Below are positions 2,660-39,689 of a stretch of DNA of 44,161 bases, in pieces (position 1 is the first letter of the stretch; each line of letters opens with the position of its first letter). A program made the position numbers and the translations under genes. The notes beneath the pieces are model-generated. The model had not been told where the DNA came from, did not search any database, and saw only the letters and a program-made list of their open reading frames with translations. Source of the stretch: Spirochaetaceae bacterium (GTDB taxonomy: Bacteria; Spirochaetota; Spirochaetia; DSM-27196; SKKC01); contig SKXQ01000057.1 of NCBI GenBank assembly GCA_007128315.1, forward strand, positions 1 to 44,161, written 5' to 3'.

Positions 2660-3184
2660 TCAGAGTCCTGGAGTCGCTATCGTCATGCGGCCGATACGCG
2701 GTGCCCACGACCGCTTTGCCTCTCCGGCTGACACGGTGGTGTCGGTTCCGTCTACATGTACAATCGTCCCAGGCAGGTGATCCACCACGAAGCTCGGTAT
2801 CGCTGATGTGTCCTCTGCTGTTTCGACTCTCGTTACGTCCTCGATCACGACATTCGCGCATCGGGTCTCCAGACGAAGGAGTGGAACGGGGTCATGCGTC
2901 GGAGCCTGACCCGGTATTGTTTCGAGCGCAGCGTTTACGCGGAGCGACCGGATCGTAATGTTTCGCAGGGTACCGATTCCGTCGGGGAAGGGTGGGGCAT
3001 CCGGGTCAAACAACTGTACCCGGCAGCCACGACAGCCGTCGCAGTTAATGACGGTATGTCTTGTGGTGCCTTCAATGTCCTTTATATATATGTCTTCTAT
3101 GGGCGAATGCACGCTCAACAGGCGTACAAAGCAATGTACGCCAGTGGCTCGAAGCTTCTCTATGCGGACACGCGGTGCGGCCAT
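2660..3184 (-). pseudogene. C-terminal fragment of a right-handed beta-helix glycosidase/lyase-like protein
   Basis: 174 codons from ATG at 3184 show the ladder-like strand pattern of pectin-lyase-fold proteins: [47 protein letters not shown] and NVVIEDVTRVE. The segment is far shorter than polygalacturonase-type enzymes and has no signal peptide or catalytic Asp cluster. It begins abruptly next to a piece of ABC permease in the opposite orientation (3201-3341). The reading frame continues upstream to 3274, but that part is only the antisense of the permease piece. I read it as the 3' end of a gene cut by a rearrangement. The beta-helix assignment is by sequence pattern; the substrate is unknown. 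Confidence 0.55.
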
Positions 3185-3200
3185 GATTGAGGCGGGTAAG

Positions 3201-3341
3201 GTATTTATCATGAAGCAGTTCTTCGAAACGATTTCGCCGGACGTCGAGGAAGCAGCGCTTATCGACGGAGCCAACCAGTGGCAACGCTACTCGCGTGTTG
3301 TGCTACCGATGGCACGTCCGGCACTTGCCACAGCAGTATAG
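3201..3341 (+). pseudogene. Fragment of a CUT1-type sugar ABC transporter permease (MalG-like)
   Basis: The plus strand encodes [20 protein letters not shown] followed by [20 protein letters not shown] and ALATAV, then TAG. This is the EAA loop (EAA---IDGA---------LP) that contacts the ATPase in carbohydrate ABC importers of the MalG group. Only about 47 of the usual ~270-300 residues remain, with no start signal and no ATPase or binding-protein gene nearby. The fragment must be a relic. Together with the beta-helix fragment and the sulfatase it hints at a lost polysaccharide or oligosaccharide uptake locus. Confidence 0.8.
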
Positions 3342-3353
3342 TCAGACTACCAT

Positions 3354-4547
3354 ATGGTCCAGAGTAAACCCATGTCCCGGCACATCGTGTTGGTATACGC
3401 CGTTCTTATCGGTGGTTCGACGCTACTTTGGAGCGGTGACTATAACGAATCAGCAACTCTGCAACACGTACTGTCCGAAACCTTTGACCGCCTCTATTCA
3501 GCACGCGGTCATGACGACGTTTCAGCAGTCCTGACCGACGTAGCCCTTGCTGTGCAGCGCTTCGAACCCGGACCGAGCGGATCAAGCGGTGATCGGAGTC
3601 AGGCGCAGAACCCTGTGCTGTTTTCTCTCGCTGGCTTTCGTGATGCATATATAGATCAGCTCTACTCGGCTGTCGGCCAGGCGAACCAGGCACTGCGTTC
3701 CGGCGACCGCAATCGTTTTCTGACCAAAGCAGATCTGGTCCAGCAGCGCACGGCTGTCCTGAGACAGATTCACGAGATCCTGCCACCAGATGACCGCGTG
3801 GCTGTAACCCGGATTGATCGGGTGCTGTCCTTACACGATACGATCAATGCGATTGAACATAGCCTTATCACTTTCGAGCGATCAATCGAAGATCGTGCGA
3901 GTGGCTCGGTTGTGCAACAGCAACTTCGTACCGTGCAAGCCCTGATCGATACCCTGTACGAGCAACATCCTGAACTGAGAGGTCTGTATGATGTTGATGT
4001 CCAGGACGCGATAACCGAGGTGGGGCGGCTTGTGTCTGGGTGGGGCGGCTTCGCCCTCGGGTTCGGGTATGGAACCGATTTTGTCGGTCCTGGTGTGTCT
4101 CTGGAGGTCATTAACTTCCTGATTCCCGAGCGTATGACACCGGACCGTCATGCGCGTTCTGCACGCATGGTGGATGTCTGGCTCAGCGCCGGCCGAAATT
4201 CTGGAATTGGTGGAATGCGGACCGGGTTTGGCTACTCCTGGCGAGTATCAGAACAGCAAGAATATCCTCGGGGTCACTATCTCGGGTATCATGTTTCGTT
4301 CGGACACCTGGGTCATGGTGGTCGATCATTGTACTGGCCGGAGCATGACGACGCTTCTATCGATGATCGGTTCAGAGGTCCCCAGTTCGGCTTGAGCTAT
4401 ACGTACGCGGTTGGCTTCCGTGTTAACAGCTTCGTGCGAGTGGGGGGAGCTTATGTTGTGAGCGACGCGAATGAGAATCGGATTGATTCAGGCGCTTTTG
4501 TAGTAACGCTGAGCGGAGGCTTCCGTTTCATTTTTTCTGAACTGTGA
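3354..4547 (+). CDS. Exported protein with barrel-like C-terminal half, first of a three-gene operon
   Basis: 397 residues from ATG 3354; ATG 3372 is an alternative that begins directly with the signal peptide (MSRHIVLVYAVLIGGSTLLW). Residues about 30-220 are predicted helical and polar. From about residue 225 the chain alternates aromatic/glycine strands (GWGGFALGFGYGTDFVGPGV, FGYSWRVSE, GLSYTYAVGFRV, GGFRFIFSEL), ending near an aromatic residue like outer-membrane beta-barrels. I do not recognise the family. The gene is followed at 27 nt by a second protein of similar design and then a third, so they probably act together at the outer membrane. A TATAGT at 3337-3342, inside the permease relic, may be its -10 element. 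Confidence 0.7.
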   Translation: MVQSKPMSRHIVLVYAVLIGGSTLLWSGDYNESATLQHVLSETFDRLYSARGHDDVSAVLTDVALAVQRFEPGPSGSSGDRSQAQNPVLFSLAGFRDAYIDQLYSAVGQANQALRSGDRNRFLTKADLVQQRTAVLRQIHEILPPDDRVAVTRIDRVLSLHDTINAIEHSLITFERSIEDRASGSVVQQQLRTVQALIDTLYEQHPELRGLYDVDVQDAITEVGRLVSGWGGFALGFGYGTDFVGPGVSLEVINFLIPERMTPDRHARSARMVDVWLSAGRNSGIGGMRTGFGYSWRVSEQQEYPRGHYLGYHVSFGHLGHGGRSLYWPEHDDASIDDRFRGPQFGLSYTYAVGFRVNSFVRVGGAYVVSDANENRIDSGAFVVTLSGGFRFIFSEL

Positions 4548-4574
4548 GTCAGGAGTTAGTAGGGGTGCTCGTGT

Positions 4575-5789
4575 ATGGGTAAATCGAAGCTGCTGCGGGT
4601 ATTCTTCCTGGTTCATTTTACGGTGTTCATGGGCGTGCCTCTGCTGTGTTCCGACGAACCATTACCAGCTGCAATTCGCCTGGTTGGGGACTCCCCGATT
4701 ACGTTTACCGATTTTGACGTCTATATAGACGGTCAAACCGTCGATGTAGACGTGAGTACCGGGGTTGTGTCGAGGCTGTCCTCTGGCGTCCGTTACCTGG
4801 AGATTCGTCAGCACCGTTTCGACGAGCAAACAACCCTTTTTCAACGCGCGGTCTATCTGGAATCGGGTACGGTACAGACGGTGCACGTTCGCATGCCGGT
4901 ACTTGGGGCACGTGAATGGGAGCTCTTGAACACGTGGGTCGAACGTGTCGATGAGGCAATCATGAGCGACTCACTGGAGAAACAACGGCAGATAGACGAA
5001 GCAGTTGCTGTAGCCGTTGCACAGGCAGATCGTTCGAGCGCATCTGCGGCTGCATCACGCGCACGGTCTGGAGTAACTTACTTTCCGGTCCAGTCCATTC
5101 GCGCGGTAAGGGATTTCGCCGAACTTCTCCTTACGGTGGAACAGGTTAGTCCGCAGGCAGTTGAGTACTACGAGTGGTACCTCGCCGAGCGAATGGTGTA
5201 TCTGTACCAGGGATTCGATCCTGACCCGGACCCTGCCGAAATGCGTTTTATCTCCCTAAGTATTTTTACCGGTTACGGGCATATGTACTCGGGCCTGGGT
5301 GGTGGATTAGGCCTGACGTGGAACATTCCGCTGTCGAGCAATCGACATTTCCTCATGGACTGGTACTACGGGCAAGGTGGAATCGATGGCCTGCAGTCGG
5401 GGGCATTTGGCGCACGTCTTGGCGTACAGGTGTTTAATACCCCTGCACAGACCGGTCCGTACGTTGGACTCGGCTTCGCTGCAGCAGGTATCGGTACGAA
5501 CAGGGAGTTGAGTTTTCGGCGCCGGTTTTCCGAAGCAGTCGAGGCAGGAGAGATGTCCGCGTTCTCGGAGGCCCGACACATTCCTGGACTGGGATTTATC
5601 GTGTTTCTGGACTACATGTTGTCCGGCGGCGTCCGCTTTACGTCCGACGTTGGTATCCTGGCAGCGTCGCTGGGCGATTCTGACGCACGACAGTGGCCTG
5701 TCCGCGATTTCCTGCCGAATAACGAAAGCATCGGTGTACTTTCGGCCAGTTTTGGATTGGCGTTCAGCCTTGTTGAGTGGTTTCGATAG
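4575..5789 (+). CDS. Exported protein: PEGA-like N-terminal domain plus predicted outer-membrane barrel
   Basis: 404 residues with a signal peptide (MGKSKLLRVFFLVHFTVFMG...LLCSDE). Residues about 45-110 (FDVYIDGQTVDVDVSTG, SGVRYLEIRQHRFDEQTTL, VYLESGTVQTVHVRM) have the short-strand pattern of PEGA domains, which are found in surface proteins. A helical stretch, residues about 115-160, is rich in Ala, Glu and Gln and may form a coiled coil. From about residue 225 there are amphipathic strands (ISLSIFTGYGHMYSGLGGGL, FGARLGVQVF, GPYVGLGFAAAG), ending FGLAFSLVEWFR, which suits an outer-membrane barrel end. AGGGG lies 9 nt before ATG. It is the second gene of the operon. No defined function is known. 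Confidence 0.7.
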   Translation: MGKSKLLRVFFLVHFTVFMGVPLLCSDEPLPAAIRLVGDSPITFTDFDVYIDGQTVDVDVSTGVVSRLSSGVRYLEIRQHRFDEQTTLFQRAVYLESGTVQTVHVRMPVLGAREWELLNTWVERVDEAIMSDSLEKQRQIDEAVAVAVAQADRSSASAAASRARSGVTYFPVQSIRAVRDFAELLLTVEQVSPQAVEYYEWYLAERMVYLYQGFDPDPDPAEMRFISLSIFTGYGHMYSGLGGGLGLTWNIPLSSNRHFLMDWYYGQGGIDGLQSGAFGARLGVQVFNTPAQTGPYVGLGFAAAGIGTNRELSFRRRFSEAVEAGEMSAFSEARHIPGLGFIVFLDYMLSGGVRFTSDVGILAASLGDSDARQWPVRDFLPNNESIGVLSASFGLAFSLVEWFR

Positions 5790-5801
5790 GAAGGGGGCGA
5801 G

Positions 5802-7028
5802 ATGGCAATGAAGGTAAAAATCGTTCTGTCCTGCATATGTTTCGTGCTCCTCGGAGCCGGGCCGCACTACGCGTTCGGAATAGACCGATTCTTACCGCCG
5901 CTTGACGGACAAACGCAGGAAGGCGCCGAGCTCCATGCTGCCGTTGGTCTGAGCGCATTAGGCTGGCTCGACGAGCATCGCAGGCAGGTGGATGTAATAA
6001 TGGATCGTCAGCGACGGTACATTCTGGAGCAGAACCCGTCGGTGCAGTCAGTTGATGATTTGTATGACCTGTACGATTACAGGGCATTCTCGGGTCGGTC
6101 GTCGTTGACGGTCGAAGATCGTGCAGAGGCCATGTCGCGGTATCTTCGAGACGCAGAGATGCGTTTCGCAGCACGCGACCTACGCACTCAAGGAGTGGAT
6201 TCCTCCGATATCCTTATCACAGACACGTTCGCGTTCATACACGGATACGATGGTGGAGCCGGTCGTACGTTCGGCGGAACAGTCAGCAGTTCACTTGACA
6301 TGTGGTCCGTTAATGGACGGGAATCGGTCGCAGCCGGGTTTTTTCTGCTTTTGAACGCGTACGGTGAGCGTAGTCTTATGCGTCTTTCGCTCGGTAATGA
6401 GCGCGGACGGTTCGAGCTCGCCTACGGTATAGAGGAGTTTGGTACATCGGAGTTCGGAGCAATCGTCGCTGCGGGGAGCTGGGTATCGGTAATGTACTCA
6501 GCGTACGGTCTGAGCGGTAACGTGATACTTGGTGGCGGCAGGACCGCTACGGATGAGTTCCGTGTTGATCTGCCTGTCATGAGCCTGTTACGGAGACCGG
6601 ATTTGCACCCCCGGGTGCAAGTGTATTTCGAACGTGTTCCTCCACAACGTCAGAGGATTAACCTTCGTTTCAGTGATATTCAGCCGCATCCCCGAGTCTT
6701 TCTGGATGGCCATGTACGGTTGCAGGTGTCAGACGCGGCTGGGATAGACATGCGAAGTGGTACAGCATACGGTCGGATTGTTTTCGTCCCTCTGCATCGC
6801 GAAACATGGCACCTGCGACTCGGCGGTGGACTATCGTACTCCGGGGATCTCACGGATCGCAGCTACGCCGGCTCCATGGCATTGTGTGAAGTGCGTCTCG
6901 GACCGCTTCACGCACGCGAAGCTCTTTCGTTCGGCGTCGTATACTCGCAGAACTATTTCCCGACGTTCTTCCGGATCCCTGATCCTGATGTCCCGGTTAT
7001 CCAAGTGCGATACGGTTCCTTTCCGTAG
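5802..7028 (+). CDS. Exported protein with predicted beta-strand-rich C-terminal half, third gene of the operon
   Basis: 408 residues with a signal peptide (MAMKVKIVLSCICFVLLGAG...AFG). Residues 30-150 are helical. From about residue 160 there are repeated amphipathic strands (GRTFGGTVSSSLDMW, VAAGFFLLLNAYG, WHLRLGGGLSYSG) that suggest a barrel or beta-sandwich. It starts 12 nt after the previous gene with AGGGGGCGAG before the ATG, so it is co-translated as part of the operon. Its last 76 bp lie antisense to the 3' end of the Lnt-like gene on the minus strand, so each transcript reads through the coding end of the other. I do not recognise the family. Confidence 0.7.
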   Translation: MAMKVKIVLSCICFVLLGAGPHYAFGIDRFLPPLDGQTQEGAELHAAVGLSALGWLDEHRRQVDVIMDRQRRYILEQNPSVQSVDDLYDLYDYRAFSGRSSLTVEDRAEAMSRYLRDAEMRFAARDLRTQGVDSSDILITDTFAFIHGYDGGAGRTFGGTVSSSLDMWSVNGRESVAAGFFLLLNAYGERSLMRLSLGNERGRFELAYGIEEFGTSEFGAIVAAGSWVSVMYSAYGLSGNVILGGGRTATDEFRVDLPVMSLLRRPDLHPRVQVYFERVPPQRQRINLRFSDIQPHPRVFLDGHVRLQVSDAAGIDMRSGTAYGRIVFVPLHRETWHLRLGGGLSYSGDLTDRSYAGSMALCEVRLGPLHAREALSFGVVYSQNYFPTFFRIPDPDVPVIQVRYGSFP

Positions 7029-8560
7029 GTGATTTTTCCGGCAGTCACCGAACGCCGCGCAGCTCCCGCACTTCGGGAATCGTGTTTGACACGAACCGTT
7101 TTCGAGCACCACACCGCGCCGGTGAGGATTCCGAGAAACGAAAGTATGCCAACCAGATCTCCTGTGCGTGGATAAAGCGTCCTGCGCGAGCGTACCCATA
7201 TCGTTGCTTCAAGAAGCTGTGCCGGCCCCCGCACATCGGCGACGATGCGACCCCACGGGTCCGACACAAGCGAATACCCCGAGTCGGCCTGCCGGAGAAT
7301 GGTCATGCCGTTTTCGACGCCTCGGAGCATGGTCATATGACCATGCAGGGGGTCGATACCGTCCCAGTCACGCGCAGGTACAAGAAGCAGATCCGTACCG
7401 TTGCGCCCGGCCTCTCGTACTACCGCCGGAAAATCGGCATCCCAGCAAATCGCGATAGCTATTCGCCCGAAGGATGTATCGGCGAAAGTCAGGGACTGGG
7501 CTCCCGCCACCGTTCCTTCCATAAAATTCCCGCCGAACTTTACATGCTCCGCAGTCAGCACTCCCTCCGGGGAATATAGAGTCGCCCGATTCAGGGCTTG
7601 TCGCTCGCCTTCAGGGTCCAGCGACATGGTCGGCACGAGCAGGTACACGCCGTGCGTGCGAGCGAGCTCAGCCGCGCTTGAGAGGAGCAGTTCTACATCA
7701 CTAAATGTTCCGATTCCTGCTGCCTCCGGCCACACGATCAGGCTCGCCCCGTTTTCCGCAGCCGCCCGGCTTGCGGCGAGGTATGCCGCGTGCAGGTCCG
7801 TGCTCGTCTCCCGAAACCGTGTCGTGTCCCGGGTCAGCAGGGGCATGAGTTCGTGAATCGGCGTCGGTCGCACCGTAATGCCTGCAATCGACACCTGCGC
7901 TTCCGTGCCCGGTGCTGCATCAATTATCCCCGGCGCCTGATGTATACGCAGAAATCCGGAAAGAATGATGATGCCCACCACCGCACCGGCAGCATACGCA
8001 CCAAGCGTCCACGGCAGCCCGTCCCGTTTTCGTCTCCAGACCCAGGCGGCGACCGCAGCCGGCCAGGTGAGCAGAAACGTGAGCCCCAGCATACCGGTAA
8101 CCGAAACAATCTGCAGCACCGGCGTAAACCCGACCTGACTGTACGCCTCCGCGCCGAAGCTTCCGAAGGGACTTCCAAACACGGCCAGCCATTCAACTGC
8201 CGTTACAGCCGCCGGGAATACGAGCGTTGAAGCGAAGGTACCCCGTGTCCGGGGAACGAGTATGCGGTACACGACGTACGGCATAACGCTGAAGAGCGCG
8301 TTCACCGCCATAAACACGAAGTGTGCAACTCCCCAAATCGGGGTGGCGCCAAACCAGGACACCGAGAGTGCGATCCACATGCACAGGTAGATCAGTTTCA
8401 ACCGCGTTCGCGGTGAGGTTTCGGCAGTATCGAGAAACCGCAGGGCGAAGAACGGCGCGAACCAGAGGGGTAGCGCATAGGAGTATCTACCGGTGCTCAG
8501 CGCAACGAGGACTCCGAAACACACGAGGAGTATATGCGAGCGACGTATTGATATTCTCAT
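6953..8560 (-). CDS. Apolipoprotein N-acyltransferase-like membrane protein (Lnt/nitrilase superfamily)
   Basis: 535 residues. About seven N-terminal membrane helices (residues 8-205) precede a periplasmic CN_hydrolase domain, and a last helix (about 468-485) follows it, the layout of Lnt. The nitrilase triad is visible: Glu279 in IVWPEAAG, Lys341 in EHVKFGG and Cys372 in AICWDADFP. Lnt transfers an acyl chain from phospholipid to the N-terminal Cys of lipoproteins. Two departures from usual Lnt stand out: the lysine lies in HVKFGGNF rather than the normal K-x-LVPFGE segment, and about 50 basic/polar residues follow the last helix. That tail is encoded partly in the 76-bp overlap with the convergent gene. 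It may be a divergent paralogue rather than the housekeeping Lnt. Confidence 0.75.
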   Translation of the reverse strand: MRISIRRSHILLVCFGVLVALSTGRYSYALPLWFAPFFALRFLDTAETSPRTRLKLIYLCMWIALSVSWFGATPIWGVAHFVFMAVNALFSVMPYVVYRILVPRTRGTFASTLVFPAAVTAVEWLAVFGSPFGSFGAEAYSQVGFTPVLQIVSVTGMLGLTFLLTWPAAVAAWVWRRKRDGLPWTLGAYAAGAVVGIIILSGFLRIHQAPGIIDAAPGTEAQVSIAGITVRPTPIHELMPLLTRDTTRFRETSTDLHAAYLAASRAAAENGASLIVWPEAAGIGTFSDVELLLSSAAELARTHGVYLLVPTMSLDPEGERQALNRATLYSPEGVLTAEHVKFGGNFMEGTVAGAQSLTFADTSFGRIAIAICWDADFPAVVREAGRNGTDLLLVPARDWDGIDPLHGHMTMLRGVENGMTILRQADSGYSLVSDPWGRIVADVRGPAQLLEATIWVRSRRTLYPRTGDLVGILSFLGILTGAVWCSKTVRVKHDSRSAGAARRSVTAGKITYGKEPYRTWITGTSGSGIRKNVGK

Positions 8561-29410: not shown

Positions 29411-30532
29411 TCATCGACTGTCCGACCGGGCATCGCGGCGTTCGGCCTGCCGCCGGATGTCTTCGAGAAATTCGTCTGCGACGTACACGATTTCCGTGCG
29501 TTTGAACTCGTGCTCAGGAATACGCGGGCCGATTACGTTCGTACGGTAGCCGATCGAAATGCCGATCAGAAACGGGTTGGCTACGAAAATACTCTGCGGG
29601 TCGATCCGGCCGGTCAGACGTGCGAACACCGAGTGCACCCGATAGTTAAACGGACGCGGGTCGGTCCGGAAGTCCCGGCTTTCCGACGTTTCGTCGAAGA
29701 AGACTCGTTCCAGCTCGAGAAAGGCGCCCGGCTGTATACCGACACCGCCTCCCAGGGCGCTCCCGCGCACCTCAAGCAGCGTGTCTCCCCCGAACGAAAT
29801 GAGATTTGGTCCGATGAGCTCAGGCAGAATACCCGGAACGCGCAGACCCCCACCGGCTGTGAACGAAACAATCGGCGCGCGTCGCAGAGTAGCATCATCA
29901 AGATATCTGGCTGATGATGCGCTCGCACCGAGATGAGCAGTATAGCGCTCGCGAAAGACGCCCCGTACTCCGAGTCCGACACCGTCTGTCCCCGCCATAA
30001 GTCCCGCGTAGAGATCAAACAGGGGAAATTCGGTGTACGCTTTGCGGTTGTCGCTGATGTGCGGCACGATGATACCTTCGACTATCGAGATGTCGACCGC
30101 GTTCAAGCGTACGGCACCGAACCCGAAGGGGACGGTGTGCACCCCGCCGTCGGGAAGCGGATCTGAGATCTGTCCCGCACGGGCAAGGAGCACCGCGTCG
30201 CGCTGTTCGTTCGTGTATCGGGCGTACAACAGAAACGGTGCATGATCTCCCCGCAGACTCGTTGCGGGTCCAAAAGGATGGGACTGCACGACCAGTCGAC
30301 CATCTGCGGTCTCGGGGAATCCGAGCGGGTCGAAATGCGAGAAAGTCCCGTCCGTGGCGACTGCGTCCGGTGAGGTTAACGCCGATGCGTCACCGTCAAG
30401 AATGAGTCGGGTCAGCTCAACGGCCGAAAGCGGCTCCTCGAGATCATCGGGTCCGTCGACCGCATGTATGTGAGTACCTGCCGTAAAAAGGATCATAACG
30501 GCCCAGACCGACAGTAGAGGCGCTTTTTTCAT
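29411..30532 (-). CDS. Exported protein of unknown function, divergent to the glucan synthase
   Basis: 373 residues from ATG 30532 (MMKKAPLLSVWAVMILFTAG then THIHAVDG), which gives a good signal peptide; the frame upstream of it is not needed. Residues 40-110 are mixed. From about 150 on there are Gly-rich amphipathic stretches (GLMAGTDGVGLGVRGVFRER, YTAHLGASASS, IVSFTAGGGLRV, NPFLIGISIGYRTNV) compatible with an outer-membrane or periplasmic beta-structure. The tail (about 30 residues) is charged. The family is not recognised. In general plan it resembles the three exported proteins at 3354-7028, though I see no clear sequence identity. Confidence 0.65.
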   Translation of the reverse strand: MKKAPLLSVWAVMILFTAGTHIHAVDGPDDLEEPLSAVELTRLILDGDASALTSPDAVATDGTFSHFDPLGFPETADGRLVVQSHPFGPATSLRGDHAPFLLYARYTNEQRDAVLLARAGQISDPLPDGGVHTVPFGFGAVRLNAVDISIVEGIIVPHISDNRKAYTEFPLFDLYAGLMAGTDGVGLGVRGVFRERYTAHLGASASSARYLDDATLRRAPIVSFTAGGGLRVPGILPELIGPNLISFGGDTLLEVRGSALGGGVGIQPGAFLELERVFFDETSESRDFRTDPRPFNYRVHSVFARLTGRIDPQSIFVANPFLIGISIGYRTNVIGPRIPEHEFKRTEIVYVADEFLEDIRRQAERRDARSDSR

Positions 30533-30602
30533 CATATATACGGTACCTATAACACTTCTGAGGGCTTCGGGTAACAATACCGTAGCGACACCGACTTTAC
30601 CG

Positions 30603-30626: not shown

Positions 30627-30671
30627 GCGCCCTGGCTGACTGGTACCGTTATCCACAGCGCGAGGATGACT

Positions 30672-33600
30672 ATGAAACCAGCAATACTTACCGCCTTTTA
30701 CGTTCGACACGCGGATGCGCTTTCAGCGTTCAAGACTCTGAAACGTCGGGGCCACCGCAGGGGTGCGGTGATCCACAAAGACTCCAATGGCCGTGTCGTG
30801 ATCCGGCGCTCCATGCTCCGACGCGGACTCAGGAGAGGTCTGCGCGCAGAGTACTCGCGACGGCTTGTGACCGAAGAATCCGCCCTTGTCCTTGAAGCGC
30901 CCATTGCGCAGTTGAGGAATCCGGCGGATCTGTTGCGCGAGAGCGGTGAGAATCCACCGCTCATTTTCGTTCGTAATCCGAAACGGGCAGGGGTCGTTGA
31001 TGATCTCGGAACCATGGTCTCGCCTCCGTCTCCAACGCAGATACAGGAGCGAGCTGTGTATCTGGCTACCACGAACCGCGTAACCCTCAGATCGTCCAAG
31101 GACACCGCTCTTCTCGACCGACTGAAGCGCATGCACCGATGGATAGGGCCGGTGTGCGCGGACCTGTCTGCGGCGGTCGCGCTCGGGCAGCGGGCGACTC
31201 CGCTTGTCGAATGGATACTCGATAACCAGTACGTCATCGACAGCAGTATTCGCGACGTGCAACAGAATCTGTCCCGCCAGTTCTATCGCGAACTTCCTTC
31301 CCTGGAGGATGGACCTCATCGCGGACTTCCCCGAATTTACGGCCTTGCCCGGCAGCTTGTTTCGGATACCGGTATGCGCATAGACCGGGACACCATCGTT
31401 TCCTTTCTTGAGGCCTACCAGTCGGTTCAGACGTTAACCACCGCGGAGCTGTGGGCAATCCCCCAGATGCTCCGACTTGCGCTTGTCGAGAGCATCGTCG
31501 TACTGGCATCCCGCGGTCTGACGGAGCTGCGCGACCGTGAGATTGCCGACTTCTGGGCGAACCGGCTGATCAGCGCCGGCCATCGTGATCCGAACCAGCT
31601 GTTCGCAATGATGGCCGAGCTGAGCGATCGTCACAGCACTTTGAGTGCGCACTTCGCGTTTCAGCTGCTCGATCACCTCTACGGTGAAGAAGCCTCGGCG
31701 ACACTGGTTCGCAACTGGCTTGAGCGGGTTTTTCACCGACCGATCGAGGAGCTGAACGCCGATGAACAGGACAGGCAGGCGAAGGAGCAGATTGCGGTCG
31801 GAAACGCGTTCAGCAGTCTGAGGGAACTCGTGCAGCTGGACTGGAGGGAACTGTTCGAGCAGGTCAGCCTCGTGGACAGAGCCCTGCGGCTTGATCCTGC
31901 GGCGATCTATTCCGGGATGGATTTCGCGACGCGTGACCGCTATCGGCGGGTAATTGAGCAGAGTGCCGGCCGGTCGGGCCGGACGGAAGTGTACGTGGCG
32001 AATGCCTGCGTTGCTCTGGCGTCCGACGCGGAGGCCCGGGGAGCCGGGGCCGAATTGACGCACATCGGGGCGTATCTGACAGGCACGGAGAAACCGGAGT
32101 TGCTGCGACGGATCGGTACCGACGAGCCGTTACAAGAGCGCGTCCGCCGCCGGGTAACCCGCCATCACACCGGTGTATACCTGACGGGAGTCGGTACGTT
32201 TCTGGCGCTGTTCATGGCGCTCATCGCCACGTTCGGACTGGCGGAGCTGCCTGCGACCGTGCGCATCGTGTTCGCTCTCATTGCCGTGCTGCCGCTGAGT
32301 CAGCTTTCGGTCGAGATAGTGAACTACCTGATCATGAGGCTGCTGCCTCCCCGGGCGCTTGCCAAGATGGACTACAGGGAGACCGGGATTCCCGACGAAT
32401 ACCGAACGCTGGTCGTTGTACCTATGCTTCTGACGAACACCAGTACCATCGATGCGCAGGTGAGAAGTATCGAAATACGGTTTCTGGCGAACCCCGATGA
32501 GAATCTGCTCTACAGTCTGTTCAGCGATTACACCGACTGTGAAACGCAGCACTGCAGCGATGATGACCCCCTGCTGCAGCGGGCAATCGCCGGGCTTGCG
32601 GGACTGAACGAACGATACGGGAACGATCGATTTCTGCTGCTCCACCGGCAGCGGGTCTGGAGTGAATCAGAGCGTGCCTTCATCGGCTGGGAGCGCAAGC
32701 GCGGAAAGCTCGAAGAGCTCAACCGCCTCATCGACGGAACACGCCCGCACGACGCCGGGAAGCTCGTCTACCTTGGCGACCCGGAGCGCCTGCGCGAGGT
32801 ACGCTTTATCATTACCCTGGACAGCGACACGCAGCTGCCGTCGGGGACGGCCCGCAGGATGGTCGAGACGATTGCACACCCGCTGAACCGACCCCGTATC
32901 GACGACGAGGGTCGAATCGCGGCCGGAACCTACACCATCATACAGCCTCGGGTGAGTCCCTCGTTGCCGAGTACCACGGGATCGCCTTTCAGTCGACTGT
33001 TCTCGCGTGCCGTCGGCATAGATCCATATACGAGCGTTGTCTCGGACCTTAACCACGATCTCAGCGGTGAGGGATCGTACCACGGGAAAGGCATCTACGA
33101 TGTGCGAGCCTTCAGCCGCGTGCTCTCTGGTCGCTTTCCCGAAGAACGGCTCTTGAGTCACGACCTGATCGAAGGGGCGCACGTTCGGGTTGGACTCGCG
33201 AGTGACATCGAGCTGCTCGACGAGTTTCCTCAGGACTACCTTACCTACGCGGTTCGACAGCATCGCTGGATACGCGGGGACTGGCAGATAGCCGCATGGA
33301 TTCGCTCTCGAGTTCCCGGTGCGAACACGGATCGAGTTGTGAATCCACTCTCGGGGTTCAATCGATGGAAGATCGCGGACAACCTCCGCCGCAGTCTCAT
33401 TCCTGTGGCAAGTCTTGCGCTGCTGGCAGTCGCGTGGACGGGGACACCGGTAACCGCAGTCATCGGGTCACTGGTCGTTGCCTCCCAGTTGCTCTTCCAC
33501 ACGATCATGCCTCCATTGACAATGGCCACAACGCGTGGGGGTCTCGGATTGCTTTCGTTCCAGACTGTGGGTCACGATTTGCTGCGAACACTCGTTGAGG

Positions 33601-36600
33601 CGTCGCTGATCCCTCACCAGAGCGCGCTGGCCGTCGACGCGATTGTACGGGTGTGGTATCGTCGCCTGCTTTCCCGCAGAAAGCTGCTGGAATGGACGGT
33701 CAAGCGGTCTGCTTCACGCGCCGCCCTGCGTCCGTCGGTCGTATTAGGGCTCACGGTCGTGCTGTCAGGCGTGGCAAGCGGCGCGGCCGCGTGGGCGTTG
33801 TATACCTGGTCGCCGGCACACGCGCTGATCGCCGCGCCCTGGCTTCTGGTGTGGATCGCATCCCCTCTCACCGCATGGGCGTTAACGCGACGTCGTCCGT
33901 CTGCGAAGCGGAGCCGAACGCTTACCGCGGTGGATGAGCACTATCTGCGCAGGATCGCGCGACGAACATGGCGCTACTATGCTGAGTTCGTTTCCAGCGA
34001 AACCTCATGGCTGCCACCGGACAACTACCAGCTTTCGCACCAGAACGAGCTTGCGATGCGTACAAGCCCGACCAATATCGGACTATGGTTTCTCAGCGCT
34101 GCCGGAGCGCGTGACTTCGGGTATCTGACCGGTGATCAGGTGATCGATCTTCTTTCGAAGTCCATGAGGTCGGTCGCCAGCCTGGAGCGCTTCGAGGGGC
34201 ATCTGCTGAACTGGTACGACATACAGACTCTGACACCTCTTGAGCCGCGCTACGTGTCGACGGTGGACAGCGGTAACCTGGTCGGCTCGCTGTGGGCTCT
34301 CGAACACGCGCTCGAGGCAATGATAACCGACCCGGTTCTCGACCGCGCGGCCTTTGCAGGGCTTCTCGATACCGTTGGCGTTCTCGAACAGTCCTTGTCG
34401 GGACGCGATCGCACGAGTCGACGGTTCCGCGAGGCGCTCGACGCCATGACCGAAGAGCTTGGAAGCCGGTTCGCCGACAGGGCGGATGCGATCCGGGCGC
34501 TTCGCACGGTCCATGAGATCGCCGGACAGATGATCGATGATCTGTCGGGAGACGAAAAGGATGCCGGAGATCCGGCCATCGTATCGACCACCGCCGCCTA
34601 CTGGCTCGGGCAGGTGCAGTGCCAGACTGCCGCGTGGCTTGAAACCTGCGACCGGTACCTCCGTTGGATGGAGATCGCAGCGGAGAAGGGCGAGGATGAA
34701 CTTGCCCCTCTCGGCAGCGAGGTGCTCGATCTCATTGCCCGGCAGCTGAAGCGCGTACCGTCGCTGCTCAGTCTTGCCAATGGAGATGTTGCAATGATTC
34801 GCGCGCTGGCTCAGAAACGCAGCCTTCCCGGCGTGACCGACACGGCGCTATCACTCTGGATCGACCGTATCGTACAGGCGTTCCACGACGCCCGGTGGCT
34901 GGCCGGTGAGAAGATTGCCTCTGCCCGGCGACTTCTCGACGACGTGCAGCGACTCGGTGACTCGGTCAACATGCGCTTTCTCTACGACCCACGGTGCAAA
35001 CTCTTTCGTATTGGCTTCAACGTGAGCGACCACCGTCCCGATAACGCCTACTACGATCTGCTGGCGAGCGAGGCGCGGATCGGAAGTTTTGTTGCTGTCG
35101 CCCGAGGTGAAGTGCCGGTCGAACACTGGTTCGCCATGGGGCGCCCGCACGACACGATCGGTGCACATCGTGTTCTGCTGAGCTGGAGCGGGACCATGTT
35201 CGAGTACCTCATGCCGCAGCTTCTGCTGCGATCCTACGACAGCTCTCTTCTGGAGAAGGCTGTCAGCGAGGCGGTGGCGATACAGATTGACTACGGACGA
35301 AAGCGACGAGTGCCGTGGGGAATCTCCGAGTCTGCGTTCGCAGACCTCGACATCAACAAAACCTATCAGTACAAGGCCTTCGGAATTCCCCGGCTCGGGC
35401 TGAAACGGGGACTTGACCGGGAACTGGTCGTTGCGCCCTACGCATGCCTGCTCGCACTCGGTATCGCCGTAAAGCCGACGCTGAAGAATCTGCGTCGTCT
35501 GGATGATCTGGGACTGCTATCTGATTACGGCTACTACGATGCAATCGACTACGGTCGTCAGGCAAGCCGTGACGGGAAGCGGGGCGTTCTGGTGAAAACC
35601 TGCATGTCCCATCATCAGGGTATGAGCTTCCTGTCGCTGAATAACGTTCTGCACCACGGCGTGGTACGGAACCATTTCCATCGTGATCCGCGGGTGCGTG
35701 CCTTCGAGCCACTGCTGCACGAAAGCATCCCTGCCGGACTTTCCCGATACTCTGCAACGCGAACGACCGAACTCGGCGCGGAGCGTATCGGCGAGGTAGT
35801 ACCGTCGGTCAGCAGATTTGAGACGCCGAACACCGCAACCACAAAGACACAGCTTCTTGGAAACGGTCGCTATTCGATCATGGTCACAAACTCCGGTGGG
35901 GGATACAGCCAGTGGGGTGAAATCGAGTTGAGTCGCTGGAGGGCCGACGCTACACGCGATTCAGGCGGTTTGTTCTGCTACATTCACGAACCCGATGCCA
36001 ATCGCCTGTGGTCGAACACCTACCACCCCACCACAGGGGCGGTGGAGTCCTATAGCGCTGACTTTACCCTTGACCGCGCGGTGATCCGCCGGTGTGACGA
36101 CGATATTGACGTCAAGACCGAGATTGTAGTCTCTCCGGAAGATGACGTAGAGATCAGGCGAATCACGCTGGTCAATCGCTCGCTGCACCGCCGTCGTCTC
36201 GAGCTCACGAGCTATATCGAGCTTTCTCTCGCACCGCACCGGCAGGATCTGCAGCATCCGGCCTTCAACAAGATGTTCATACAGACCGAGGCGCTTCCCG
36301 AACATCGGGCGCTTCTCGCGTATCGGCGGACGCGTCGCGACGACGAGGCACCCGTATTCGCGGCCCACAGGCTTACGCGTGGTGCCGGTACGCAGGAAGA
36401 GACAACAGACCTGAGGTTCCAGACCGACCGGGCAGCATTCATCGGGCGTGGACGGAGCCTCGAGAATCCGGAAGGTGCCGTCAGCGCGCCGGGAGGAGGG
36501 CATGGCTCGGTGCTCGACCCGATCTTCAGCCTGCGCGCCGGTGTGGTGCTCGAGCCCGGCGAGCAGCAGCAGCTTTCGCTGATTGTCGCCGCAGGAGACT

Positions 36601-39600
36601 CCAGGCAGCGTGTGATCGATCTGCTCGACACCTACGACGATCCCCATGCGATCGAACGCGCAATGGATTTCGCGTGGGCGGCGGCACAGATTGAGCTTCG
36701 TGCGCTTCGGATACAACCCGATGAGGCACGCCGGTTCCAGCAGATCGCGAGTCATCTGCTTATTCCCAATGCGCGCCTTCGCGTGCCGGGGCAGAGAATC
36801 CTGGAGAACGGGAAAGGACAATCCGGCCTGTGGCCGTACGGGATCTCGGGAGATGCGCCGATTCTCATGATCAGCATTGCTGATACCCGCGATGTCGGTC
36901 TCGTCAGGCAGATCCTTCGCGCACACTCCTACTGGCGCATGCAGGGATTCGTGACCGATCTTGTAATTGTGAACGAAGAAGCGAGCGGCTACGAGAATCC
37001 GCTACGTAATCATCTCGAAGATCTCGTGCGCGCCCACCCGCACGGAGCGTTCCTGGTCAGTGCAGATCAGATCCCGCGTGAAGACCTTGTCCTGATGACC
37101 GCCGTCGCACGCGTCGTGCTCGTTGCCGCGCGTGGATCCCTGCCGCAACAGCTCGGGATGGCCGTTGACGTTCCCGAGTTGCCGCAGAGAGCGGTTCGCA
37201 AGCGCGCTGTTGTTGATGCATCCGCCGAGCTTCGTTTCATGGAGCTTCATTACTTCAACGGCCTTGGCGGTTTCACCGACGGTGGACGCGAGTACGCAAT
37301 CTATCTCGGGGAAGGATCGCATACGCCCGCACCATGGGTGAACGTAATCGCGAACCCGGGCTTCGGGACAATTGTCGGAGAAACCGGCGCCGGATTTACA
37401 TGGTATGGCAACAGTCAGCGCAACCGGCTTACGCAGTGGTCCAACGATCCGGTTGTCGATCCTGTGTCGGAGGCCCTCTACATCCGGGATGAAGAATCCG
37501 GTGCGTACTGGTCACCGACCGCTTCGCCAGTTCGCGAACGATCCGCCTACCGCGCACGCCACGGAGCGGGCTATTCAGTATTTGAGCACAACAGTCACGG
37601 CATAGAGCAGGAGCTCACCGTTTTCGTACCGATGTCTGACAATGGAGGTGATCCGGTCAAGCTGCAGCGGCTGCGGTTGACGAATGCCACCACGAGAGAG
37701 CGGACGCTCTCGGTGACGAGCTACCAGGAGTGGACCCTTGGTGAAAACCGCGAGTCATCGTACATGCACGTATCCACGTCGTGGGATGAACGTTCCTCCG
37801 CGCTGCTCGCGCGGAATCGCTATCATCCGGATTACCCCGGTCGCCTTGCGTTCGCTGCCATTACACCTGCTGCCAGCTCCTACAGCGGCGACCGCACCGC
37901 GTTTCTGGGACGCAATCGCAGTGCGGAGCGACCCGCGGCCATGGATCGCGTCTCGCTTTCCTCGCGGACAGGAGCGGGAATAGACCCCTGCGCAGCGCTG
38001 CAGACATCGGTTACCCTGGCTCCCGGGGCGACCGCGGAGGTCGTCTGCATGCTCGGCCAGACCGACTCGCTTGAGCAGGCACGCGAACTCATTCTATCGT
38101 ATGGCAGCACAGCAGCCATCGAGACCTCGCTTGCTCACACGCAAGCGTGGTGGGACACCCTGCTTGGAACCGTCGAAGTCCAGACACCGGAGCTTGCGGC
38201 AAACATTCTTCTGAACCGCTGGCTGCTCTATCAGAGCCTGAGTTGCCGCATGTGGGGGAGGTCGGCCACGTATCAGTCAGGCGGCGCCTTCGGATTTCGC
38301 GATCAGCTGCAGGACTCCATGGCTTTCGCTGTCGCCCGGCCTGTACTGGCCCGCGAGCAGATTCTCCTCGCCGCCAGCCGACAGTTCTCCGAAGGCGACG
38401 TTCAGCACTGGTGGCATCCGCCCGGTGGTGCCGGTATCAGGTCGCGCATTTCGGACGATCTGCTCTGGCTTCCCTACGTGGTCGCGCATTACGTGCGGAT
38501 CAGCGGCGACACGAGCATCCTCGCCGAAGAGGTACCATTCCTCAATGCACCTCCGCTGGAAACAGGGGAACACGAGGTGTTTGCTGTTCCGCGGATCGGA
38601 ACCGAACGCGGTACGGTTTTTGAACACTGCCGGCGCGCCGTCGAGCGGGGACGTACCGCCGGCCCGCACGGTCTTCCGCTCATGGGAACCGGAGACTGGA
38701 ATGACGGGATGAATCTTGTCGGAGCCGGAGGCAGAGGCGAGAGCGTCTGGCTCGCCTGGTTCCTGGTCGACGTCCTTCGTGGAATGCAGGAGTTGAGCGA
38801 TCTCCAGGGTAATGGAGAGCTCAGTCGGTCCTTTGACCTGCAGAGAACCGAGCTCATCGGTCGAATAGAAGCCTCGGCGTGGGACGGCTCATGGTACCTG
38901 CGGGCATTCTTCGACAGCGGTGCTCCCCTGGGATCGGCGGCGAACGCCGAAGCGAAGATCGACTCGCTGCCACAATCCTGGGCCTGTCTGAGTGGCGGGG
39001 GAGACGAGACGCGCGCCCAGACAGCCGTTCAATCGGCGTGGGACCACCTGGTCCGCTCTGACGAGGCGCTGGTGCTGCTCTTTGACCCGCCGTTTGACAA
39101 GAGCGAGCCGTCGCCTGGCTATATCCGGGGATACCCGCCGGGTGTCCGCGAAAACGGCGGGCAGTACACGCACGCTGCACTCTGGTTCGCCATGGCCATG
39201 GCGCGCAGCGGTGACGGCGAGCGAGCTGCGACGATGCTGCGTCTGCTGAACCCCATAGAGCAGACCAGGAACCCCGAGGCGGTGTGGCGATACGCGGTCG
39301 AACCATATGCAATCGCAGCGGACGTCTATCGCCTGCCGGGGCGCGTCGGCCGCGGTGGCTGGTCGTGGTATACCGGATCGGCTGCGTGGATGTACCGGGC
39401 GTGGGTCGAAGAGGTGCTCGGTCTTCAGATCCACGGCGAGGAAATGCGGCTGGCCCCGGTCATACCGGCGTGGTGGGACGGTTTCACACTGCGCTACCGC
39501 CACGGCCGGGCTGTCTACCACGTGCGCGTGGAAAATCCCGACCACGGTGAGCGCGGCATAGCGCGCGTCGAGATAGACGGGCGGCCGGCACCGGACGGTT

Positions 39601-39689
39601 TGATCCGCCTCGAGCGGTCGGAGTCGGAGCACCACGTTCTCGTGACTATGTGTGCCAGCGCACCGACGGAGATAGTCTCAAGAGTGTAA
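30672..39689 (+). CDS. ndvB: Cyclic beta-1,2-glucan synthase (GT84-GH94 type)
   Basis: 3005 residues from ATG 30672, which lies 6 nt behind GAGG; the in-frame ATG 30666 abuts it. The layout matches Brucella Cgs/rhizobial NdvB (about 2830-2870 residues). Two membrane helices sit at about 500-555. The glycosyltransferase domain has DSD at 717-719 (LDSDTQLP) and RQHRW at 862-866, the QxxRW-type motif. Four or so more helices lie at about 905-1080, and a glycoamylase-like domain at about 1095-1660 (RTSPTNIGLWFLSAAG, CMSHHQGMSFLSL). Two GH94-type modules follow from about 1735 and 2205, the second with DWND at 2675-2678. The enzyme polymerises UDP-glucose on itself at the inner membrane, trims and cyclises the chain. 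Periplasmic glucans aid osmoadaptation. No glucan exporter or modification gene is next to it. Confidence 0.96.
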   Translation: MKPAILTAFYVRHADALSAFKTLKRRGHRRGAVIHKDSNGRVVIRRSMLRRGLRRGLRAEYSRRLVTEESALVLEAPIAQLRNPADLLRESGENPPLIFVRNPKRAGVVDDLGTMVSPPSPTQIQERAVYLATTNRVTLRSSKDTALLDRLKRMHRWIGPVCADLSAAVALGQRATPLVEWILDNQYVIDSSIRDVQQNLSRQFYRELPSLEDGPHRGLPRIYGLARQLVSDTGMRIDRDTIVSFLEAYQSVQTLTTAELWAIPQMLRLALVESIVVLASRGLTELRDREIADFWANRLISAGHRDPNQLFAMMAELSDRHSTLSAHFAFQLLDHLYGEEASATLVRNWLERVFHRPIEELNADEQDRQAKEQIAVGNAFSSLRELVQLDWRELFEQVSLVDRALRLDPAAIYSGMDFATRDRYRRVIEQSAGRSGRTEVYVANACVALASDAEARGAGAELTHIGAYLTGTEKPELLRRIGTDEPLQERVRRRVTRHHTGVYLTGVGTFLALFMALIATFGLAELPATVRIVFALIAVLPLSQLSVEIVNYLIMRLLPPRALAKMDYRETGIPDEYRTLVVVPMLLTNTSTIDAQVRSIEIRFLANPDENLLYSLFSDYTDCETQHCSDDDPLLQRAIAGLAGLNERYGNDRFLLLHRQRVWSESERAFIGWERKRGKLEELNRLIDGTRPHDAGKLVYLGDPERLREVRFIITLDSDTQLPSGTARRMVETIAHPLNRPRIDDEGRIAAGTYTIIQPRVSPSLPSTTGSPFSRLFSRAVGIDPYTSVVSDLNHDLSGEGSYHGKGIYDVRAFSRVLSGRFPEERLLSHDLIEGAHVRVGLASDIELLDEFPQDYLTYAVRQHRWIRGDWQIAAWIRSRVPGANTDRVVNPLSGFNRWKIADNLRRSLIPVASLALLAVAWTGTPVTAVIGSLVVASQLLFHTIMPPLTMATTRGGLGLLSFQTVGHDLLRTLVEASLIPHQSALAVDAIVRVWYRRLLSRRKLLEWTVKRSASRAALRPSVVLGLTVVLSGVASGAAAWALYTWSPAHALIAAPWLLVWIASPLTAWALTRRRPSAKRSRTLTAVDEHYLRRIARRTWRYYAEFVSSETSWLPPDNYQLSHQNELAMRTSPTNIGLWFLSAAGARDFGYLTGDQVIDLLSKSMRSVASLERFEGHLLNWYDIQTLTPLEPRYVSTVDSGNLVGSLWALEHALEAMITDPVLDRAAFAGLLDTVGVLEQSLSGRDRTSRRFREALDAMTEELGSRFADRADAIRALRTVHEIAGQMIDDLSGDEKDAGDPAIVSTTAAYWLGQVQCQTAAWLETCDRYLRWMEIAAEKGEDELAPLGSEVLDLIARQLKRVPSLLSLANGDVAMIRALAQKRSLPGVTDTALSLWIDRIVQAFHDARWLAGEKIASARRLLDDVQRLGDSVNMRFLYDPRCKLFRIGFNVSDHRPDNAYYDLLASEARIGSFVAVARGEVPVEHWFAMGRPHDTIGAHRVLLSWSGTMFEYLMPQLLLRSYDSSLLEKAVSEAVAIQIDYGRKRRVPWGISESAFADLDINKTYQYKAFGIPRLGLKRGLDRELVVAPYACLLALGIAVKPTLKNLRRLDDLGLLSDYGYYDAIDYGRQASRDGKRGVLVKTCMSHHQGMSFLSLNNVLHHGVVRNHFHRDPRVRAFEPLLHESIPAGLSRYSATRTTELGAERIGEVVPSVSRFETPNTATTKTQLLGNGRYSIMVTNSGGGYSQWGEIELSRWRADATRDSGGLFCYIHEPDANRLWSNTYHPTTGAVESYSADFTLDRAVIRRCDDDIDVKTEIVVSPEDDVEIRRITLVNRSLHRRRLELTSYIELSLAPHRQDLQHPAFNKMFIQTEALPEHRALLAYRRTRRDDEAPVFAAHRLTRGAGTQEETTDLRFQTDRAAFIGRGRSLENPEGAVSAPGGGHGSVLDPIFSLRAGVVLEPGEQQQLSLIVAAGDSRQRVIDLLDTYDDPHAIERAMDFAWAAAQIELRALRIQPDEARRFQQIASHLLIPNARLRVPGQRILENGKGQSGLWPYGISGDAPILMISIADTRDVGLVRQILRAHSYWRMQGFVTDLVIVNEEASGYENPLRNHLEDLVRAHPHGAFLVSADQIPREDLVLMTAVARVVLVAARGSLPQQLGMAVDVPELPQRAVRKRAVVDASAELRFMELHYFNGLGGFTDGGREYAIYLGEGSHTPAPWVNVIANPGFGTIVGETGAGFTWYGNSQRNRLTQWSNDPVVDPVSEALYIRDEESGAYWSPTASPVRERSAYRARHGAGYSVFEHNSHGIEQELTVFVPMSDNGGDPVKLQRLRLTNATTRERTLSVTSYQEWTLGENRESSYMHVSTSWDERSSALLARNRYHPDYPGRLAFAAITPAASSYSGDRTAFLGRNRSAERPAAMDRVSLSSRTGAGIDPCAALQTSVTLAPGATAEVVCMLGQTDSLEQARELILSYGSTAAIETSLAHTQAWWDTLLGTVEVQTPELAANILLNRWLLYQSLSCRMWGRSATYQSGGAFGFRDQLQDSMAFAVARPVLAREQILLAASRQFSEGDVQHWWHPPGGAGIRSRISDDLLWLPYVVAHYVRISGDTSILAEEVPFLNAPPLETGEHEVFAVPRIGTERGTVFEHCRRAVERGRTAGPHGLPLMGTGDWNDGMNLVGAGGRGESVWLAWFLVDVLRGMQELSDLQGNGELSRSFDLQRTELIGRIEASAWDGSWYLRAFFDSGAPLGSAANAEAKIDSLPQSWACLSGGGDETRAQTAVQSAWDHLVRSDEALVLLFDPPFDKSEPSPGYIRGYPPGVRENGGQYTHAALWFAMAMARSGDGERAATMLRLLNPIEQTRNPEAVWRYAVEPYAIAADVYRLPGRVGRGGWSWYTGSAAWMYRAWVEEVLGLQIHGEEMRLAPVIPAWWDGFTLRYRHGRAVYHVRVENPDHGERGIARVEIDGRPAPDGLIRLERSESEHHVLVTMCASAPTEIVSRV

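Follow-up and report, generated by a model that had tools for sequence, protein, structure and literature searches.

Good descriptions exist for only a small number of the outer-membrane proteins of spirochaetes. In Treponema pallidum, four eight-stranded barrels are single-domain proteins and two proteins with OmpA-like domains are without barrels, as stated in the portion of PMC8407342 that treats them. The PEGA-domain protein TPANIC_0923 is placed among the known or predicted surface-exposed outer-membrane proteins in the corresponding portion of PMC10600179. Here we describe three adjacent genes, denoted A, B, and C, in a stretch of 44,161 nucleotides (the window; contig SKXQ01000057.1) from the draft assembly of a Spirochaetaceae bacterium (GCA_007128315.1, 3.3 Mb in 175 contigs). 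The encoded proteins look like a new set of surface proteins that is specific to one lineage but of a known type; they do not look like a machine of a new kind. What is new is the inverted order of the domains in the family to which protein B belongs.

The three open reading frames (ORFs) lie on the same (+) strand. The original prediction, made from the window alone, had described three exported, tightly spaced proteins of about 400 residues, and this description holds: the proteins are 397, 404, and 408 residues long, the gaps between the genes are 27 and 12 nucleotides, and all three N-termini resemble signal peptides by eye. A simple export rule flags A and all three proteins of the related genome described below as exported. 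The features discussed in this report are as follows.

3354-4547 (+): gene A, 397 residues as listed; likely true start ATG 3372, giving 391 residues
4575-5789 (+): gene B, 404 residues, exported; PEGA-like front, barrel back (predicted)
5802-7028 (+): gene C, 408 residues, exported; longer strand-rich back, judged by eye
3371-7029 (+): block kept with the related genome; limits at most one base from the ATG of A at 3372 and the stop of C at 7028
4668-5075 (+): divergent PEGA-like domain and helix of B, residues 32-167, from alignment A7
5214-5786 (+): predicted eight-stranded outer-membrane barrel of B, residues 214-404, from AlphaFold2, Foldseek, and VIA-align
3441-4046 (+): predicted helical front of A, residues ~30-231, AlphaFold2 helices H30-49 to H216-231
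4041-4544 (+): putative eight-stranded barrel of A, residues 230-397, from composition and strands counted by eye

Conservation of the three-gene block

The second holder of the trio is a Spirochaetaceae bacterium isolate of the same genus, DLM2.Bin42 (the sibling), in which the genes are carried on a contig of 5721 bases (L023, letter-identical to G001:C75, L014). The gene order is the same, and the proteins are 75% (A), 79% (B), and 85% (C) identical to those of the window. The nucleotide differences fall mostly at third codon positions, and the ratios of nonsynonymous to synonymous substitution (dN/dS) were determined to be 0.19, 0.19, and 0.15 for A, B, and C, respectively, as expected under purifying selection. 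Because order and identity are kept, the differences are concentrated at third positions, and dN/dS is low, we conclude that the three genes are real.

Comparison of L023 with the whole window by blastn gave a single match, at positions 3371-7029 (81.5% identity over 3675 columns), and the flanks gave none. The start of A is probably at 3372 (Met7) and not at 3354, because the first start codon of the sibling ORF falls there and the DNA similarity opens at 3371.

Single-sequence searches of 100 genomes, the host genome included, found A in two, C in two, and B in seven, five of which match the front of B only. When the order was searched with two-row profiles (46 genomes), full-length matches to each of the three proteins came from the identical two genomes and from no other. 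The genes had been expected to be lineage-specific and to co-occur, and they do so in a sample of two holders. Another genome of the genus (G002) is without the trio, but it is 76% complete and the absence says little. A match to A in this genome (expectation value, E, 0.14) is a short ORF and was judged to be due to chance; the gene beside it is presumably an isopropylmalate synthase gene. A scan of a species-genome collection with C alone returned no match, the peptide patterns used covering positions that differ in the sibling, and the same scan with the C alignment A3 returned the sibling only; the latter scan was seeded by two short peptide patterns, so that distant relatives may be missed. 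Viral contigs and plasmids were searched with C only and contained no relative of it, and cargo of a phage or plasmid was rejected on this ground. No family was matched by A, B, or C at an E of 0.05 or better in the Pfam and NCBIfam models. The data support a trio that appears to be restricted to one lineage and kept there as a unit. The proposal that the proteins are undescribed stands for the trio, within the searches made, but the front of B is part of a large spirochaetal family.

The two halves of protein B

Residues 214-404 of B were modeled with AlphaFold2 from a two-sequence alignment as eight strands, with a mean predicted local distance difference test score (pLDDT) of 60.8 and a predicted template modeling score (pTM) of 0.54; the other four models of this region have mean pLDDT values of 34-51. 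The strands are located, in the numbering of the domain, at residues 11-22, 27-40, 44-57, 60-73, 81-94, 122-136, 140-152, and 174-190. Strand 5 is followed by a gap of 27 residues and strand 7 by one of 21, the other gaps being 2-7 residues long, as expected for a barrel with a periplasmic front. The best Foldseek matches are OmpX (E 2.0e-6, template modeling score 0.50 by query), OmpW, OmpA, and NspA. Using VIA-align, the highest Z scores were found for NspA (16.4, over 144 residues with a root-mean-square deviation of 2.6), OmpW (16.3), and the barrel of OprF (16.3). The last 191 residues of B are thus predicted, at moderate confidence, to form an eight-stranded outer-membrane barrel, the top matches of the model being outer-membrane proteins.

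In its eight strands, its short turns, and its long loops, the predicted barrel agrees with the OmpW/OprG-type and NspA/OmpX-type barrels (fold matches to OmpX, OprG, OmpW, and NspA at Z 11.7-16.4), at a sequence identity to solved eight-stranded barrels of only 7-16%. With OmpA (1qjp, Z 15.3), B shares in addition the joining of an eight-stranded barrel to a periplasmic domain in one chain. However, the order of the domains is reversed in B, and the Pfam scan of B contained no peptidoglycan-binding domain of the OmpA/Pal type. The four barrels of T. pallidum (TP0126, TP0479, TP0698, and TP0733), counted among these eight-stranded types, are, unlike B, single-domain proteins; they are set apart here by description only, from the relevant portion of PMC8407342.

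The front of B supports the earlier suggestion of a PEGA-like domain in one of the three proteins, by homology and in a divergent form. Residues 32-167 align (A7) with a domain in proteins from four other spirochaete genomes, and B used as a single sequence finds matches in five other genomes with E of 3.2e-5 to 7.5e-4. In the protein from genome G080, the domain that aligns with the front of B stands after two PEGA domains (PF08308), whereas B itself has no match to PF08308 at E up to 10. When the six-row A7 profile was run over the class, the domain was found in 39 of 297 genomes, a count that includes by construction the six genomes from which the profile was made and, since A7 contains B, the match of B itself. 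Among these matches are short, weak ones (E about 1e-4) that may represent PEGA-type domains of another sort. Two genomes, G029 and G041, contain the domain at 13 places each in proteins of very different length; the domain, a spirochaetal one without a name, has undergone a lineage expansion there. In a 14-member alignment (A9), four columns (Gln, Arg, Pro, and Glu) are invariant in 14 of 14 members, B included. PF08308 is matched by two of these members, with a best E of 0.12 that is under the cut-off. No named Pfam or NCBIfam family lies above its cut-off in the front of the members scanned, and A9 matches no sequence of a solved structure at E up to 1. The alignment of B with its sibling counterpart (A2) gave nothing meaningful against the same sequences (best E 0.3). 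By its front half, B is a member of a large spirochaetal family with a PEGA-like domain and a following helix, of which we found no description in the one open-access library searched. A lipoprotein signal on B is unlikely, because Cys25 is a histidine in the sibling.

In all, 25 family genes were located: 19 of 20 fetched loci supplied 20 of them as ORFs (L085 yielded none), and other loci supplied the remaining five. Their starts were taken as the first start codon and may be wrong, as for the neighbor of the L018 gene, which hence was not counted as exported. The length is 430-560 residues in 15 of the 25. At least 23% of the last 180 residues are glycine or aromatic in 10 of the 25, the B of the sibling included, and other members, such as those from L015, L016, and L017, have different C-termini. 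Pfam models of outer-membrane barrels were matched over the cut-off in three of the 14 relatives scanned (L074, L077, and L072). The front of the L072 protein matches the N-terminal part of TolB with an E of 1.5e-4, far below the cut-off of that model, and the L079 protein does so weakly (E 0.033). The relatives often bear an extra, weakly TolB-like front domain as well as a C-terminal barrel, and some of them share the order found in B, with the barrel last. B is without the first domain; its PEGA-like domain begins at residue 32, directly after the signal peptide. The barrel sequences are too divergent for a good alignment.

A same-strand exported neighbor within 60 nucleotides was found for 10 of the 25 family genes, again with the sibling B among them. 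Since this holds for only 10 of the 25, a fixed complex is not general in the wider family. Apart from the sibling, the 25 loci had no ORF homologous to A (best E 0.11) or to C (best E 0.5). In two loci of genome G023 (L018:2678-5331 and L069:197-2795), a second ORF overlaps the PEGA-like/barrel gene, and the overlapping ORF of one locus is related to that of the other (E 1.8e-37). A pair of PAP2 phosphatase genes that overlap each other and encode strand-rich C-termini (L074:1364-3090) is convergent to a PEGA-like/barrel gene.

Proteins A and C and the neighboring DNA

The full-length AlphaFold2 model of A, with a mean pLDDT of 40 and a pTM of 0.35, carries low confidence. Residues 31-210 are helical with pLDDT of ~44-68, the values being lower beyond, and VIA-align found only generic helical bundles for the model (best Z 11.9). 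The helical front halves of the original prediction are therefore retained for B, as a PEGA-like domain and helix found by homology, and, at low confidence, for A. Searches of solved-structure sequences gave nothing meaningful for the alignment of A (A1, best E 2) or of C (A3, best E 1.5).

The C-terminal halves had been described as rich in glycine and aromatic residues and in strands. The last 180 residues of A are 31% glycine and aromatic (rank 3 of 111) and rank 8 in strand propensity; the corresponding ranks of B are 5 and 18. The description fits these two proteins and, in part, C, whose last part ranks 8 in strand propensity and 27 in glycine and aromatic content. Three barrels recognized by Pfam rank 13 and 27, 7 and 3, and 46 and 29 in glycine/aromatic content and strand propensity, respectively, and with one of them at merely 46 and 29 the comparison is weak and only indicative. 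By eye, which is not a test, eight strands were counted in A and 12-14 in C. The C-terminus of A resembles what we take to be the last strand of outer-membrane proteins. For A, a C-terminal barrel is consistent with the composition; for C, a barrel is putative.

A fourth protein, encoded at 29411-30577 (-), had been thought to have a similar plan. Its C-terminal half is average (ranks 36 and 42 of 111), although still compatible with a barrel, and direct comparison with A, B, and C revealed no similarity. Relatives of it were found in nine of 61 genomes, its own included. By these comparisons it is a separate family that nothing links to the trio. A second copy, 79% identical, is present in its own genome (G000:C14:1147-2268), and the relative in G021 is split by a stop into two pieces. 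The adjoining ORF of 3007 residues (30666-39689, +) presumably resembles cyclic beta-1,2-glucan synthase.

Just upstream of the block, at 3210-3338 (+), lies a 43-residue piece of an ATP-binding cassette (ABC) transporter permease, which covers positions 73-113 of the 184-position BPD_transp_1 model (E 1.7e-8). It ends about 12 bases before the listed start of A and is a gene remnant at the edge of the block. An ORF on the opposite strand (2660-3274, -) overlaps the remnant and has no Pfam match; within it, the DNA at 2820-3172 is 70% identical to G000:C32:971-1323, a partial second copy. Downstream, the ORF of an apolipoprotein N-acyltransferase gene on the opposite strand enters C by 76 bases (6953-7028, -), and the tail of this gene may have been replaced upon arrival of the block. 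In the sibling, the downstream flank contains a gene with a weak HicB-like match that is below the cut-off, and the upstream flank contains two ORFs, a small one that looks exported and one with a borderline helix-turn-helix of the resolvase type. The GC content at third codon positions is 55-58% in A, B, and C and 63-72% in eight other measured genes of the window. From the mismatch of the flanks, the low third-position GC, and the block limits at the coding ends, the block looks as if it was moved, or caught in a rearrangement, as one unit. The promoter scan gave one site (3325-3353; 2.7 expected), and the terminator scan gave 10 (4.2 expected), all on the + strand and most within genes, with two at the end of C (7011-7027 and 7064-7078); nothing was concluded from either scan.

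Possible roles of the trio

The explanation that we favor, with a chance we place slightly under even, is a three-gene cassette of outer-membrane barrels with periplasmic fronts that are probably together in the outer membrane. Signal peptides would export the three proteins, and the Bam machinery would fold the C-terminal parts into the outer membrane as barrels while the fronts remain in the periplasm. B would be an OmpA turned round, with a periplasmic PEGA-like domain and helices followed by the eight-stranded barrel, and its two long loops would face outside. A would be a periplasmic helical bundle followed by a barrel similar in size to that of B, and the larger strand-rich domain of C, of perhaps 12-14 strands, could be a channel, a receptor, or a larger pore. 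The proteins would be made together and most likely be co-located in the outer membrane, where the fronts of A and B would probably connect the barrels with the cell wall or with partners in the periplasm. The linkage of the block suggests that A, B, and C act together. The outer-membrane assembly of the original prediction is possible, and we infer both an A-B-C complex and a tie of the A and B fronts to the wall. We count in support of the cassette the conserved order, purifying selection, the block limits, the distribution in the identical two of 46 genomes, the fold matches of the B barrel, the front and composition of A, the three of 14 relatives with a barrel match, the 10 of 25 with an exported neighbor, and the matches to Omp85 (BamA-type) proteins, of which there are two in each of the genomes that carry the trio.

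Several results weigh against this explanation. The trio has two holders. The best model of the B barrel was built on two sequences, the other four are poorer, and its lower-ranked fold matches (Z 9-12) include soluble barrels, among them a designed fluorescence-activating barrel and PsbO. In the C-terminal half of A, the pLDDT of the full-length model is ~20-30, so that the model is uninformative there, and the glycine and aromatic content of C (20.6%) is ordinary. The barrel match is not over the Pfam cut-off in 11 of the 14 relatives of the B front, and 15 of the 25 family genes are without an exported neighbor by the rule used, some of them clipped by contig ends. A crude count of amphipathic 10-mers speaks against the claim of amphipathic strands, as it was not above that of shuffled sequence in either half of A, B, C, or the protein at 29411. 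The single shared architecture, taken as common descent, was not borne out, as pairwise profile comparisons among A, B, and C detected no homology; homology with the protein at 29411 was looked for as well, and none was found.

The lack of homology among A, B, and C and the many B relatives without an exported neighbor also favor a reading in which the three outer-membrane proteins are independent: they would have a transcript and a moved block in common but form no complex, and would be lineage-specific surface proteins such as small-molecule channels, adhesins, or phage receptors. The single-domain eight-stranded barrels of T. pallidum have possible transport roles in the portion of PMC8407342 that describes them, which points the same way. 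We regard such independence as quite possible, although not probable, given that the trio is kept as a block despite differing flanks. It is unlikely that B is the sole outer-membrane barrel, with A and C as soluble or lipid-associated periplasmic partners that have strand-rich C-terminal domains. The ordinary glycine and aromatic content of C, the lack of a usable model for the C-terminal half of A, and a strand count that does not exceed that of shuffled sequence would agree with such partners, but the C-terminal half of A equals that of B and the better of the three Pfam-positive barrels in glycine/aromatic and strand level, and A ends in what we take to be an outer-membrane-type last strand.

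The block limits near the codons, the unrelated flanks, the low third-position GC, the permease piece just upstream, and the HicB-like and resolvase-type matches in the sibling flanks would all suit a block that a mobile element or an island carries as cargo and that is kept for exchanging surface antigens, without a fixed role in the host. We consider this highly improbable, because within 2900-7500 the block is not flanked by a pair of direct or inverted repeats, C has no relative in the viral contigs or plasmids searched, and the genes are under purifying selection. In a bolder form of the favored cassette, which we judge decidedly unlikely, the trio would be a self-contained, exchangeable outer-membrane complex, made of three barrels that are unrelated and have arms in the periplasm, and B would come from a widespread "inverted OmpA" family (TolB-N-like, PEGA-like, helix, and barrel) of spirochaetes that connects the periplasm with the outer membrane.

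The periplasm of spirochaetes houses the flagella. The PEGA-like/barrel family, which is matched in 39 of 297 genomes, with as many as 13 places in a single genome, would offer candidates for a tie between the outer membrane and this compartment, and the trio would be a small, lineage-specific case of that family.

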